NCBI RefSeq assembly: GCF_033441515.1
Contig: NZ_JAWQJT010000001.1
Location: 2,666,001-2,730,000, forward strand
Source: Amycolatopsis solani
GTDB taxonomy: Bacteria > Actinomycetota > Actinomycetes > Mycobacteriales > Pseudonocardiaceae
Reading direction: 5' to 3'
DNA: 64,000 nucleotides
Shown: piece by piece, positions 8,156-16,679 of the stretch
How the letters are laid out: each line of letters opens with the position of its first letter
Numbering within the stretch: the stretch's first letter is position 1
Notes under the pieces: model-generated
The model's input: only the letters and a program-made list of their open reading frames with translations
The model's database searches: none
What the model was told of the DNA's origin: nothing
Translations under genes and position numbers: made by a program

Positions 8156-11103
8156 GGCTGCACAGGCTGGAGGTCGAAGCCTTCGGGCCGTACTGCGCAC
8201 GCGAAGTGGTCGACTTCGACGTGCTCGGCGCCGACGGTCTCTTCCTGCTGCACGGCGAGACCGGCGCGGGCAAGACGACGCTGCTCGACGCGATCGCGTT
8301 CGCGTTGTTCGGCGTGGTCCCCGGCGCCCGCAACGAAGCCAAGCGGCTGCGCTGCGACCTCGCCGACCCCGACCAGGTCACCGAGGTCGCGCTGGAGCTC
8401 ACCGTGCAGGGGCACCGGCTGAAGATCGTGCGCAACCCGGAGTACCAGCGGCCGAAGCGGCGCGGCGAGGGCACGACCACCCAGCAGGCCCGGGTGTCGC
8501 TGAGCTGGGTCGGCACCGCGCCCGCCGGGCTGGCCCCGGAAGGCCTGATCCGGATCGAGGAGGTCGCGCGCACCGTCGAGCGGCTGCTCGGGATGACCGC
8601 GGCCCAGTTCTTCCAGGTGGTGCTGCTGCCGCAGGGCGAGTTCGCCCGGTTCCTGCGGTCGGACACCGCCGAGCGCGAGAAGCTCCTCGAGCGGCTGTTC
8701 GGCACCGAGCGCTTCGCCGACGTCGAACGCTGGTTCGCCGACCTGCGGGCCGAGCGCGGCCGCGAGCTGGAAAAGCGGCAGCAGGACGTGCGGGAGCTGC
8801 TGGCCAGGTACGCGCAGGAAGCCCAGCAGGACCCGCCGGAGGCGGACGTCGCCGAGTGGGTTGCCGCCGTGCTCGCCGCTTCGGAAGAACGCGTCGGGCA
8901 GGTCACCGCCGAGGAGCTGCGGGCGCGGTCGGCCGCCCAGCGGGCGGACGTCTACCTGCAGGAAGAACGCGCCGGCGCGGAGAAGATCCGGCGCGTCCGC
9001 ACCGCGCACCTGCGGCTCCTGGAAATCACCGAGCAGGCGCCGCAGCGGGCGGAGTGGGCGCAGGAGGTCGCGGCCGCCCGCCGCGCCGCCGGGGTCGCCG
9101 TCGAGGCCGACCTCCTGGACCGCCGGGCCGCCGAACTCACCGAGGCCGAGCAGGCGGAGAAGGCCTGCGGCGGGCACCTGCGCGAGTTCGGCACGCGCGC
9201 GACCGGCGACCTGAAGGCGCGGGCGGCGACCGCGCGGGAAGAGGCCGGAGCGGTGGCCGAGCTGGTCGCCGAAGCCGAGCAACAGCAGCTCGACGTGATG
9301 CGGCGCGACGACCGGAAGCTGGCCGCCGTCACGGCCCGGCAGCAGGTCGAGCAGCTGACCACCGAACTGGCCGCGATCCCCGGCCAGCTGGCCAAGCTGC
9401 GGGCGGACGCACTGGCCGCGGCCGAAGCCGAAGCCAAGCTCGACGGAGCCCGCGCCAAGGTCGAAGAGCTGACGGCCGCGGCGCGCGACGCGGCCGACCT
9501 GCCCGAGGCGCAAGCGAAGGTCGGGCGGGGCGAAGCGAAGCTGCGCGAGGTCGTCGACACGCACCAGGCGGCCCGGCAGCGGCGGCTCGACCTGCGGGAG
9601 CGGCGGCTCGACGGGATGGCGGCCGAGCTGGCCGCCGCGCTGCCCGAAGGCGCGCCGTGCCCGGTGTGCGGGTCGGCCGAGCACCCGGCGAAGGCGAACC
9701 GGGACGTCGAGCTGGTCGACCCGGCGGAGGAGCGCGCCGCCGAAGAAGCCGAGCAAACGGCGGACGCGGTGCGGCAGCGAGTCGTGGTCGCCCTGGAAGA
9801 GGCGAAGGCGCGGCTGGCCGGCCTGCTCGAGCGGCTGGCCGGGCGCACGGCCGAGTCGATCACCGCGGAGCTGGCGGAAGCGCGTTCGGCGGTCGTGGCG
9901 CTGACCGAGCGGGCGGCAGGGAAGGCCAAGCTGGGTCAGCAGGTCGTCCTCTTGGAGCAGGACCTCGAAGCGCGGACCGAACGCCGCCGCCAAGCGGAAC
10001 AGGCGGCGACCGAGGCGACGACCGACGTCCGGGCCCTCGAAGAACGCCTGGCCGAGCGCGAACGCCGGCTGGTCGCCGGGCGGGGCGAGTTCGCGGACGT
10101 CGCGGCGCGGCGTGGGCACCTGATCGGCCTGGCGGGGGCTCTCGAAGCGGTCGCCGAAGCGCGGACGGCCGTCATCGGGGCCCGGGAGCGGGTGGCCGAG
10201 CAACGTGCGCTGGTCGAGGCGGCGGTCACGGCGAAGGGGTTCACGTCGCTGAAGAAGGCGCGGGCCGCGATGCTGCCGGACGAACAGATCGAGAAGCTGG
10301 AACAGGGCATCGCGGAGGCCGAGGCGGCCGCGGCCGGGGCACGGGCGCTGCTGTCCGAACCGGACCTGTTCGGGATCTCGCCGGACGACGTCGCGGACGT
10401 CGACCGCGCGGCCGACGCGGCGGAGCTGGCGCGGGCGCGCGCGGATTCGGCGTACGCGGCGATGCGCGTGGCCACCGCGCAGCACGACGAGCTGACCCGG
10501 CTGGCCGGCTTGCTGCGGAAGGCCCTCGCCGGGCTGGCGCCGGCCGAAGCGGCGTACGCCGAGTTGCGGGCGCTCGCGGAGGTCGTCAACGGGCGCGGGC
10601 AGAACAGCCGCAAGATGTCGTTGCGGTCGTACGTGCTGGCGGCGCGGCTGGAGGAGGTGGCGGTCGCCGCCACGCACCGGCTGCGCACCATGAGCCAGGG
10701 GCGCTACTCGTTCGTGCACTCGGACGCGGCCGGGGCGCGTGGCACCCGCGGCGGGCTCGGCATCGACGTGCTGGACGACTACTCCGGCACCATCCGCCCG
10801 GCGAAGACGCTGTCCGGTGGCGAGTCGTTCCTCGCGTCGCTGGCCCTCGCGCTGGGGCTGGCCGATGTCGTCGCGGGGGAAACCGGCGGCGCGCTGCTCG
10901 ACACGCTGTTCGTCGACGAGGGCTTCGGCACCCTGGACGCCGAAACCCTCGACGTCGTGATGAACATCCTCGACGAGCTCCGCGCCGGCGGCCGGGTGGT
11001 CGGGCTCGTGTCCCACGTCGAGGAGCTGCGGCAGCGCATCCCGACGCGGCTGCGCGTCCGCAAGTCCCGCACGGGCTCGACATTGGAGGTGCGCGCCGGC
11101 TGA
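8152..11103 (+). CDS. sbcC: Exonuclease subunit SbcC (Rad50-like SMC ATPase)
   Basis: SbcC is the ATPase and DNA-tethering subunit of SbcCD. The 983-residue protein has a Walker A at residues 35-43 (GETGAGKTT), a long coiled coil very rich in Ala, Glu and Arg, a zinc hook CPVCG with Cys at 503 and 506, the second coiled coil, then the ABC signature LSGGESFLASLALALGLADV, the Walker B/D-loop FVDEGFGTLDAETLD and the VSHVEEL switch. The start ATG overlaps the sbcD stop. Length and domain order are normal for actinobacterial SbcC. Confidence 0.97.
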   Translation: MRLHRLEVEAFGPYCAREVVDFDVLGADGLFLLHGETGAGKTTLLDAIAFALFGVVPGARNEAKRLRCDLADPDQVTEVALELTVQGHRLKIVRNPEYQRPKRRGEGTTTQQARVSLSWVGTAPAGLAPEGLIRIEEVARTVERLLGMTAAQFFQVVLLPQGEFARFLRSDTAEREKLLERLFGTERFADVERWFADLRAERGRELEKRQQDVRELLARYAQEAQQDPPEADVAEWVAAVLAASEERVGQVTAEELRARSAAQRADVYLQEERAGAEKIRRVRTAHLRLLEITEQAPQRAEWAQEVAAARRAAGVAVEADLLDRRAAELTEAEQAEKACGGHLREFGTRATGDLKARAATAREEAGAVAELVAEAEQQQLDVMRRDDRKLAAVTARQQVEQLTTELAAIPGQLAKLRADALAAAEAEAKLDGARAKVEELTAAARDAADLPEAQAKVGRGEAKLREVVDTHQAARQRRLDLRERRLDGMAAELAAALPEGAPCPVCGSAEHPAKANRDVELVDPAEERAAEEAEQTADAVRQRVVVALEEAKARLAGLLERLAGRTAESITAELAEARSAVVALTERAAGKAKLGQQVVLLEQDLEARTERRRQAEQAATEATTDVRALEERLAERERRLVAGRGEFADVAARRGHLIGLAGALEAVAEARTAVIGARERVAEQRALVEAAVTAKGFTSLKKARAAMLPDEQIEKLEQGIAEAEAAAAGARALLSEPDLFGISPDDVADVDRAADAAELARARADSAYAAMRVATAQHDELTRLAGLLRKALAGLAPAEAAYAELRALAEVVNGRGQNSRKMSLRSYVLAARLEEVAVAATHRLRTMSQGRYSFVHSDAAGARGTRGGLGIDVLDDYSGTIRPAKTLSGGESFLASLALALGLADVVAGETGGALLDTLFVDEGFGTLDAETLDVVMNILDELRAGGRVVGLVSHVEELRQRIPTRLRVRKSRTGSTLEVRAG

Positions 11104-14530: not shown

Positions 14531-14994
14531 CCCGGTGGAACCAGGGACGCGCCACGATCGACGCGCTCATCGCGCGCGGTTCGCTCGAACACGTGCCGGC
14601 TTCGCGGGAGGCTGCGGAAGCGGAGCTCGTCAGGGCTCGCACCCACGTCGTTTCCGCGCGGCAGCTGCTGACCACGGATCCGGAAGGCGCCTACACGCTG
14701 GCGTACGACGGCGCCCGCCGGGCTTTGGCGGCCGTCCTGCAGAACCAAGGCCTGCGTGCGACGAGCCGCGGTGGCCACATCGCCGTCTACGAAGCGGTTC
14801 TCGCGCAACTCGATCCGCCGCTGGGGCCGCTTCTGCGTCCCTTCAACCGGATGCGAGTCCGGCGCAACGAAGTCGCCTACCGTTCTTCCGAGGCACCCGC
14901 GGTGACCGCCGAGGACGTGACCGCTGACGTGGCGAAGGTCGACGACCTCATCGGCGTCGCCGAGAAGACGATTCCCACCATGCCGCGCTACTGA
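14527..14994 (+). CDS. HEPN-domain protein (toxin candidate of an MNT-HEPN pair)
   Basis: The 155-residue protein is an all-helical HEPN candidate: a helix with [20 protein letters not shown], then the core [20 protein letters not shown], a [14 protein letters not shown] segment and the region that normally holds the RNase motif. Here the motif reads RVRRNEVAY, so Arg112/113 and Asn114 are present but the usual catalytic His is replaced by Tyr118. Such RN-x3-Y variants occur in HEPN families, and whether they cleave RNA is uncertain. It overlaps the MNT gene by four bases, and its TGA shares an A with the ATG of the next gene. Confidence 0.78.
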
Positions 14995-15329
14995 TGGAGA
15001 ACACGTCGTCCCGCCCGCTGGCCCCGGACGAACGGGCCACCCTCGACGTCCTGCTCGCCCGGGACTTCCCCGGCGCGGCCGAGCTGCGGGTGCAGGCCGC
15101 CACGGCCCGGGTGACCGGCCGCTGCGGTTGTGGCTGCCCCACGATCGACCTCGCGGTGGACGAAACGACCCCGCGGGCGGCACTGGAGGAATCCGTCGCG
15201 GTCGAGGCCGACGCGCCGGACGGCGGGCTCATCGTGTTCGTCGACGAAGGCCGGCTCTCTTGCCTCGAGTACTGGACGACGACGGGCGAGACACCGGCGG
15301 GGTTCCCCAAGCCGGAGGAGATCCGTTGA
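14994..15329 (+). CDS. Conserved small protein with CGCGC motif, third gene of the MNT-HEPN operon
   Basis: The 111-residue soluble protein begins in the HEPN stop codon (TGATG), so it is probably translated by reinitiation. It opens with [20 protein letters not shown] and [20 protein letters not shown], has the motif [14 protein letters not shown] near residue 45, and ends with acidic beta-like segments ([18 protein letters not shown]). I recall similar actinobacterial proteins annotated only as hypothetical. The three closely spaced Cys could bind metal, but no other ligand cluster is evident. Association with the toxin-antitoxin pair rests on the overlap; it could simply be a neighbour. 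Confidence 0.7.
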
Positions 15330-15432
15330 GGGCGCCGCCGCGCTGAGAAGCTGACGGCACCCATCTTTCGACCAACGACAGGGACGCTTCGTGCGCGCGG
15401 GCTTGCTGACGGTCGATACTGCTCTCGAGTGT

Positions 15433-15466
15433 GTCCGTCATGGACCTCTGTGCGTCCGTCGTGGAC
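15433..15466. promoter_or_regulatory. Paired GTCC-N5-GGAC palindromes upstream of the ParA-like gene
   Basis: GTCCGTCATGGAC (15433-15445) and GTCCGTCGTGGAC (15454-15466) differ at one position and start 21 bp apart, two helical turns. They lie 53-86 bp upstream of the ParA-like start and could be operator or parS-like sites. Confidence 0.5.
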
Positions 15467-15518
15467 GTGCTAGTGTCCCCTCGTGTGCCACTCGGCGCCA
15501 TCGAGTGAGAGGTTGACC

Positions 15519-16538
15519 GTGCCTACGTACGCGTACTGGAATAACAAGGGGGGCACCGGCAAGACCAGCCTGTGCTTTCAATCGATCTGCTTCTACGCCA
15601 ACGCTCACCCCGAGGAGCGAGTGCTGGCCATTGATGTTTGTCCGCAGGCGAATCTTTCGGAGTTGTTCCTTGGCGGACTGGCGAATGGAGGAAGTGATCG
15701 TCTGCTGGCTAGGCAGGGTGAGACGATCCGAGCTACTATCGGTGGCTATTTTCAGCTCCGCCTGCCCTCGCCCTATTCGGCTCCCAATTTCAATCCGGAT
15801 GATTTTCTTACGCATCCAGTCGAGTACAATGAGCATGTCCCAGAGAATGTCGACCTGATCTGCGGTGATCCGCTCCTCGAGTTGCAGTCGAACGCAATTT
15901 CCACGCTTGCGAACACGCAGATTCCCGGCACGGACGCGTGGGTGACGGTGGTTGACTGGCTTCGCGACCTACTTGGGAGACTTGAAGGTCGTTATGACAC
16001 AATCTTTGTTGATTGCAACCCGAGCTTCTCGATCTACACGCAGATCGCGCTGTCGGCGGTCGACCGGCTTGTCCTGCCGGTGATGGCCGATGACTCGTCT
16101 CGTCGTGCCATTCAGAACGCGTTCTCCTTGGTATACGGTCTCAAGCTTCCGTCGGACATCTACTTGGCCTACGCGTTCGCCACGCGACTGCAGAAAGTTG
16201 GGAGGGTGCTACCAAAGGTGCATCTGATTGCGAAAAACCGGCTTACTCAATACATCACGGATGCCTCCGCGTACTCTGCGGTCTTGGAGACGATCGAGCT
16301 GGATGTACGGAAATTGCTGGCAAGCAACCCTGAGATCTTCGCGTTCGACGAGGTTGAGGATGGCGTTATCAGTATCCGGGACTTCCAGACAACCGGCGTG
16401 GTGGCCTTCTCGCACGGTTGTCCGCTTTATGCGCTCAAGTCTGGCAAACGGAATGTACTTGGTCGCCGGGTCACCGTTAAAGAAGACTACCGGCTTAACA
16501 TGGTTGCCGCGATGAACGATCTTGTCGACAAGTTGTAA
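15519..16538 (+). CDS. Orphan ParA/MinD-family ATPase
   Basis: The 339-residue product has the deviant Walker A NNKGGTGKTSL at residues 7-17, an A'-like block VLAIDVCPQANLSEL, and a Walker B-like YDTIFVDCNPSFSIYTQIAL, as in ParA-type partition ATPases. In the A' motif the second Asp of the usual DxDPQ is Cys, and in the B region DCNPS replaces DxPPS. The C-terminal third (GVISIRDFQTTGVVAFSHGC) does not match a domain I know. There is no adjacent parB. Base composition and codon use are much less GC-rich than the neighbours, which indicates transfer. The GTG at 15519, after GAGAGG, is preferred to one at 15483. Confidence 0.85.
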   Translation: MPTYAYWNNKGGTGKTSLCFQSICFYANAHPEERVLAIDVCPQANLSELFLGGLANGGSDRLLARQGETIRATIGGYFQLRLPSPYSAPNFNPDDFLTHPVEYNEHVPENVDLICGDPLLELQSNAISTLANTQIPGTDAWVTVVDWLRDLLGRLEGRYDTIFVDCNPSFSIYTQIALSAVDRLVLPVMADDSSRRAIQNAFSLVYGLKLPSDIYLAYAFATRLQKVGRVLPKVHLIAKNRLTQYITDASAYSAVLETIELDVRKLLASNPEIFAFDEVEDGVISIRDFQTTGVVAFSHGCPLYALKSGKRNVLGRRVTVKEDYRLNMVAAMNDLVDKL

Positions 16539-16647
16539 TACATACGCTGGGCGATCGACGACCAGATGTGGCCCTATGAGTTGCCGTGCTGGTGTGCACC
16601 TACAGGACCTTAGGTGACCTGTCAGGTGCGCTGTCCACTGACTGAAG

Positions 16648-16679
16648 GCGCCGCCGCGCTGAGATCAGAGCGGCGGCGC
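16648..16679. terminator. Hairpin at the right end of the ParA island
   Basis: Arms GCGCCGCCGC (16648-16657) and GCGGCGGCGC (16670-16679) are perfectly complementary. The hairpin follows the small membrane-protein gene on the minus strand and was probably shared with the CGCGC gene before the island inserted. Confidence 0.6.

Follow-up and report, generated by a model that had tools for sequence, protein, structure and literature searches.

Results

A direct repeat encloses one ParA gene behind a host hairpin

We analyzed a 64-kb stretch of the Amycolatopsis solani genome (hereafter, the window), in which a host gene for a 111-aa protein is followed directly by a short block carrying a gene for a ParA-family ATPase (Table 1). 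The host protein matched no Pfam family, and its homologues occur in 28 other genomes among the 150 searched. The block is bracketed by a perfect 18-bp direct repeat, GGCGCCGCCGCGCTGAGA, whose copies are spaced 1316 bp apart and whose match extends to 21 of 22 positions when read from 15327 and 16643. Exactly two copies exist in the 10,277,369-bp (10.28-Mb) genome, searched on both strands. The repeat is also the longest exact direct repeat shared by the 500-bp flanks on either side of the ParA gene. Chance can be excluded, since no repeat longer than 14 bp arose in 2000 Markov-shuffled flank pairs, or longer than 15 bp at 387 placements of the same size across the window. The GC content of the islet is 0.566, compared with 0.721 and 0.720 in the 5 kb on its two sides. 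These results confirm the original prediction of a perfect 18-bp repeat around a 1.3-kb block of lower GC with one ParA-like gene.

Table 1 Features of the ParA islet and its borders in the window
Feature	Position	Strand	Basis or remark
Upstream host gene, 111 aa, CGCGC motif	14994–15329	+	ORF; stop codon 2 bp ahead of the left repeat
Left 18-bp repeat copy, attL-like, orphaned hairpin 5' arm	15331–15348	+	Repeat search, folding
Non-coding ParA leader within the islet	15349–15518	+	
Palindrome GTCC-N5-GGAC, copy 1	15433–15445	+	Also direct repeat family D5
Palindrome GTCC-N5-GGAC, copy 2, 21 bp from copy 1	15454–15466	+	Also direct repeat family D5
ParA-family ATPase gene, 339 aa	15519–16538	+	GTG start (P0001); upstream GTG at 15483 also open
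Weak hairpin 3' of ParA, inside the islet	16594–16631	+	-25.2 kcal/mol, z only -1.26
Right 18-bp repeat copy, attR-like, intact 5' arm	16647–16664	+	Repeat search, folding
Host hairpin 3' arm	16665–16679	+	Inverted repeats I2 and I3; folding

The two copies of the repeat differ in their surroundings. The right copy forms the 5' arm of a hairpin with 14 of 15 positions paired (-29.5 kcal/mol, z -3.45), while the left copy has no pairing partner (-11.2 kcal/mol, z -0.31), so that only the right copy keeps its complementary arm, as had been claimed. Insertion into a terminator had also been proposed, and the stem and its position agree with this. Because a T-tract terminator scan at the locus found none, the label "terminator" refers to position and stem only.

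Both the ORF list and a Pfam scan left ParA as the sole credible gene between the repeats. No recombinase or integrase ORF is present in the block, in line with the proposal of an element that has no recombinase of its own, and this rules out an integrative and mobilizable element with its own tyrosine or serine integrase. An insertion sequence or transposon is ruled out as well, as the block has no transposase gene and the nine listed inverted-repeat pairs include no terminal ones. The 64-kb window contains no tRNA gene, which excludes a tRNA as the insertion target. Separately, part of the left repeat with the bases that follow (15339–15357) recurs 55 bp into the islet at 15394–15412 with 74% identity (family D3), perhaps as a recombinase arm site, perhaps by chance.

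Relatives carry the empty site

If the block was inserted, close relatives should carry the joined flanks, as the original prediction had proposed to check. The joined flanks aligned as one block in 11 of 29 relatives' loci (L007–L016 and L023), with identities of 72.5–89.0%; the exact right-flank marker that we used is lacking in 14 of the 29, two of which (L018 and L022) carry a variant of it by eye. The best case, L007, was 89.0% identical over 246 columns with one gap, and L013–L015 reached 84.8–85.9%. Identity was lower in L011 (72.5%) and L012 (75.1%), whose 35 and 27 gap columns arise because the hairpin is missing in both. The empty sites match the predicted junction. Thus, the ParA gene entered the 5' arm of the hairpin behind the CGCGC gene together with its own leader, and an 18-bp repeat stands at each end.

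Four relatives (L017, L019, L021 and L035) hold other DNA of about 350–900 bp between the same flanks, so the intergenic spot behind the 111-aa gene is variable in general; the sequence of the host hairpin also differs among relatives. A close ParA was found in none of the relatives searched. At E 1e-20, 2 of 149 relatives (window genome excluded) gave a match, both 40–41% identical and located elsewhere in the genome. Two integrase queries against the relatives' loci, within 1.5-kb flanks, revealed no larger integrase-bearing element at this site.

The protein is a plain ParA-type ATPase with palindromes ahead of its gene

P0001 scored above the cut-off for the Pfam families AAA_31 and CbiA and matched PHROG 164, "ParA-like partition protein", while no NCBIfam model exceeded its own cut-off. 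It contains the deviant Walker A motif KGG-x-GK, and KGGTGK is invariant across 23 aligned relatives. The AlphaFold model (mean pLDDT 77.5, pTM 0.85) has ParA, McdA and Soj as its closest structural matches, with 2oze also among the matches, and an N-terminal HTH is absent from it. P0001 therefore has both the Walker A motif and, in its predicted structure, the ParA/MinD fold that define ParA family ATPases. In a viral structure library, one match fell below E 0.001 and carries no name. PADLOC 2.0.0 matched P0001 to no anti-phage defense family at E 0.1, which rules out a described defense family. A literature search for a lone ParA as an anti-phage gene, or for integrase-less elements at terminators, covered mostly journals outside subscription, with "para" as an ambiguous term, and found nothing on this ParA family.

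The two palindromes in the leader recur in the subfamily. Exact GTCC-N5-GGAC occurs within 180 bp upstream of ParA in 14 of 36 close-subfamily loci (18 sites), against 0.24 loci predicted by the site density in the remainder of these loci (2.78 vs 0.038 sites per kb). The corresponding binomial P of 1e-21 is too small, as some of the 36 loci are related. The GC-rich window has 12 such sites in 64 kb, a rate that predicts about one locus in 36. In a per-locus test on 46 close and distant loci, counting palindromes or general dyads, 20 passed P 0.05 and 26 failed. Tandem GTCCA half-sites, mostly 9 bp apart, lie directly before ParA in L066 (29 in 300 bp), L071 (11) and L076 (5), and enterobacterial copies have different upstream dyads, of the GGTAAAC/GTTTACC kind.

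Two further one-gene islets lie at gene ends

Our scan for repeats around ParA covered 18 loci (17 plus L141). Repeats bracket ParA in 3 of the 18 loci; the other 15 have no bracketing repeat. Relatives with the ParA gene but lacking repeats had been named as a refuting finding. These 15 loci count against an element driven by ParA, and not against the insertion itself.

The strongest case for an att-type event is a Streptomyces locus (G1413, protein P0028), and the window by itself would not decide the matter. Here the gpmA 3' end is present twice, once on either side of ParA, as an imperfect repeat of 47 columns with 77% identity (E 1.4e-5 in a small search) whose core copies are 1537 bp apart and differ at 3 of 24 positions. 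Among the 24 relatives examined, 17 have a single gpmA position to which both copies align; the left copy found no match in L149, L152, L153, L165, L166, L168 and L170. The ParA part aligned to none of the 24 within the fetched flank. That the copies differ, yet both align to the gene end, favors an att-type event.

The second locus, in Halostreptopolyspora alba (G432, protein P0096), is a weaker case. Compared with relative L102, dprA is shortened and has a new tail, followed by ParA and, 1271 bp on, by the tail again, with 28 of 34 bases identical. This repeat scores 16, compared with 15 for a terminator-like 15-mer in L045 and L051 in the same scan, and a scan with 12-bp seeds missed it; what gives it weight is its position in two dprA tails. 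Beyond the second tail, a 689-bp stretch shares 97% identity with G905 (L145), from another genus. This shared region truncates dprA in both genomes, and in G905 the slot after the dprA tail holds a Phd/ParE-type pair.

No recombinase ORF was seen in the gpmA or dprA islet. All three islets have a GC content below that of their flanks (0.636 vs 0.728 and 0.743 for gpmA; 0.608 vs 0.703 and 0.666 for dprA). Their target sites are unrelated to each other, and their spacers have nothing detectable in common at E 0.05.

In another genome (G316, L095), ParA sits inside an insertion of about 2.1 kb relative to L126–L130, with no bracketing repeat. This insertion opens with what by eye is a tRNA 3' fragment (T-arm and acceptor end, about 8300–8345); ARAGORN reported no tRNA.

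A rare subfamily in the company of mobile DNA

The subfamily is rare, present in at most 1.3% of sampled genomes per search with the window's own genome excluded. We found it in 3 of 393 genomes of the class at 1e-60 and in none of 395 in the phylum, and at 1e-100 in 2 of 351 and 1 of 297 genomes of two families. It is nevertheless well conserved: identity is 83% to a protein from a Pseudonocardia MAG, 65–70% to those of Glutamicibacter, Plantibacter and Prescottella, 69% to one from a Xanthomonas plasmid and 65% to those of Salmonella and Pantoea plasmids. At E 1e-10, at least 4300 related proteins exist. A viral scan with the single protein found no relative, and one with the ParA alignment found 43 loci. 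The Salmonella-type ParA had no near match in the E. coli collection.

At other loci, ParA is found as cargo in prophages, plasmids or larger insertions. From 20 viral or phage-plasmid loci we selected 16 genes upstream of ParA for a family scan; in L055 and L081 the selected gene is not the ORF closest to ParA. Five encode CI-type Peptidase_S24/HTH repressors (L049, L053, L060, L063 and L068), one a KilA-N protein (L070) and three belong to other families; seven matched no family. L077 and L079 have a phage portal gene less than 1 kb downstream of ParA. Of the 5,426 genomes in the E. coli collection, 354 gave a match to the phage-plasmid region used as query and only 38 of these cover at least 80% of it, so ParA is accessory there. 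In four others examined, ParA is missing and small genes follow the shared flank. One E. coli phage-plasmid (L048) carries a separate ParB-family gene.

Elsewhere, the neighbors include MobF relaxases and, on a Cryobacterium plasmid, annotated SIR2 and PDDEXK genes. In Prescottella, a tRNA-Gly gene and an integrase gene flank ParA, which occupies an edge position; no repeat of the tRNA-Gly end was found in the 96 kb scanned, a stretch with only some 7 kb on the tRNA side. In Pseudonocardia, it belongs to an element that resembles a phage or plasmid and encodes a terminase and an integrase. Such neighbors are those of mobile-element cargo, and they suggest that ParA may have a role in immunity.

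Two side observations concern other neighbors. A CAP12/TIR-domain gene is found near ParA in Plantibacter (L037, 6004–8926). The distant ParA of L002 and L003 (G003 and G071; 40–41% identical, 41% in L002) lies in low-GC DNA and adjoins a RiboL-PSP-HEPN gene, identified by family in L002 and similar by eye in L003; L002 has an HNH gene as well. ParA and the RiboL-PSP-HEPN gene are possibly a two-gene system in these loci.

Discussion

On balance, we lean towards reading the insertion in the window as an integrase-less, att-flanked islet that resembles cis-mobilizable elements (CIMEs), in which ParA is cargo and a putative self-regulated ATPase of mobile-element immunity or exclusion. In our model, the repeats would be the attL and attR cores left by site-specific recombination. 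A tyrosine-type integrase would either have acted in trans from a larger element or, as in CIMEs, have disappeared during the reduction of such an element. ParA would then be a passenger on DNA moved by another element's enzyme and, regulated through its own palindromes, may give mobile elements immunity or exclusion.

Several observations support the islet reading: the unique repeat, the 11 empty sites in 29 loci, the gpmA and dprA islets, the low GC, the edge position in Prescottella, the mobile contexts and the palindromes. A site-specific integrase in particular is suggested by the repeats at gene ends, the host structure that stays whole on one side and the empty sites. For tyrosine recombinases, direct repeats of 8–60 bp are described in a review (PMC5704250). 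Since repeats surround ParA in just 3 of 18 loci, we take it to be cargo and not the mover. Together with its plain ATPase fold, this rules out ParA as a recombinase and leaves the proposed dependence of mobility on ParA unsupported; dependence on a helper, the other half of that proposal, fits the two further islets. The role in immunity or exclusion is suggested by the locations in prophages and plasmids, by high conservation at low frequency and by the palindromes ahead of the gene.

Other observations weaken the islet reading. We found neither a helper integrase (two queries, 1.5-kb flanks) nor a circle or an attP, and the three islets have unrelated targets and spacers with no detectable similarity. 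In addition, 15 of 18 loci are unbracketed, the dprA repeat is near chance level and the tRNA-Gly end in Prescottella is unrepeated. A foreign attP would also need a lucky match, because the 18 bp are identical within a hairpin that varies among relatives.

The closest known kind is the CIME. As defined in PMC5704250, CIMEs are elements that have lost their integration and transfer genes but retain attL and attR. The window islet has no integration or transfer genes; attachment-like repeats stand at both ends, the targets are gene ends, and the Halostreptopolyspora islet lies beside a further mobile region. Compared with that definition, the islets differ in being a single gene of 1.3–1.5 kb with no parent or helper identified, and their movement is an inference.

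Decay in place is a possible but rather unlikely alternative. Here a full integrase-bearing prophage or conjugative element would have lost all but an edge gene and both att sites, and the scenario departs from the CIME-like reading only in that the islet would never have moved as such. CIMEs arise by decay, according to PMC5704250, and ParA is indeed the edge gene beside an integrase in Prescottella and part of the terminase- and integrase-bearing element in Pseudonocardia. However, three independent losses would each have had to end at one ParA gene and 1.3–1.5 kb, and the integrase queries returned no larger element in the relatives' flanks at the window's site.

We consider it improbable that the repeat stems from target-site duplication or end-joining, in which a staggered break in the hairpin took up a ParA-bearing piece and fill-in synthesis produced the 18-bp repeat with no attachment site involved. 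Such an event explains more easily why the copies are identical although the hairpin varies among relatives. It also agrees with the lack of a recombinase gene and of terminal inverted repeats among the nine listed pairs, and with the other DNA that four relatives hold in the same intergenic spot. Yet it leaves unexplained the gpmA copies, which differ from each other and both align to the gene's 3' end, and the recoded dprA tails.

As to function, ParA and its array might instead be a partition or stability module of an extrachromosomal stage, type Ib-like but minus the second protein, and not an immunity gene, which we think doubtful. A ParA with upstream iterated sites and no binding partner is similar to a type Ib partition locus that lacks its second protein. 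With the locus of the delta protein of pSM19035 (2oze), the likeness lies in a ParA without an N-terminal HTH and in iterated sites directly upstream. The predicted ParA/Soj-type fold, the tandem 9-bp half-site arrays just upstream in L066, L071 and L076, and the copies on plasmids and phage-plasmids all agree with such a module. In contrast to type Ib loci, the gene is chromosomal and no DNA-binding or centromere-binding second protein stands beside it, as the islet has no second gene. Moreover, L048 has a ParB-family gene of its own, and ParA is accessory in the E. coli phage-plasmids.

For the immunity role that we prefer, the closest parallel is found in P2-like phages, whose exclusion genes, according to PMC9122126, are located between gpA and gpQ, the portal gene. 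ParA resembles old and tin of P2 in being a lone accessory gene: a CI-type repressor gene precedes it in 5 of the 16 cases scanned, and in L077 and L079 a portal gene is less than 1 kb away. The main text of PMC9122126 does not contain "ParA" as a whole word, and, unlike old and tin, ParA has no known antiviral activity and no PADLOC match.

Taken together, three one-gene islets at gene ends of actinobacteria hint at a tiny passenger element that depends on the enzyme of another element for its movement. A bolder and unlikely generalization is that ParA-only islets are a class of minimal actinobacterial mobile elements, each made of nothing more than an att core, one ParA gene and an array of palindromes or iterons, and moved between gene ends by helper integrases of different elements. 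The ParB-free ParA would read its own array, for example to exclude elements with the same array.

If these islets do move as units, they would count among the smallest of integrative elements, consisting of attachment sites and one gene, and a lone ParA would pay its way on mobile DNA. Mobility aside, this ParA is a testable candidate for a function that needs no partner, such as exclusion or defense: it is 65% identical between actinobacteria and enterobacterial prophages, often has a palindrome array and, in the window, stands without a partner gene.
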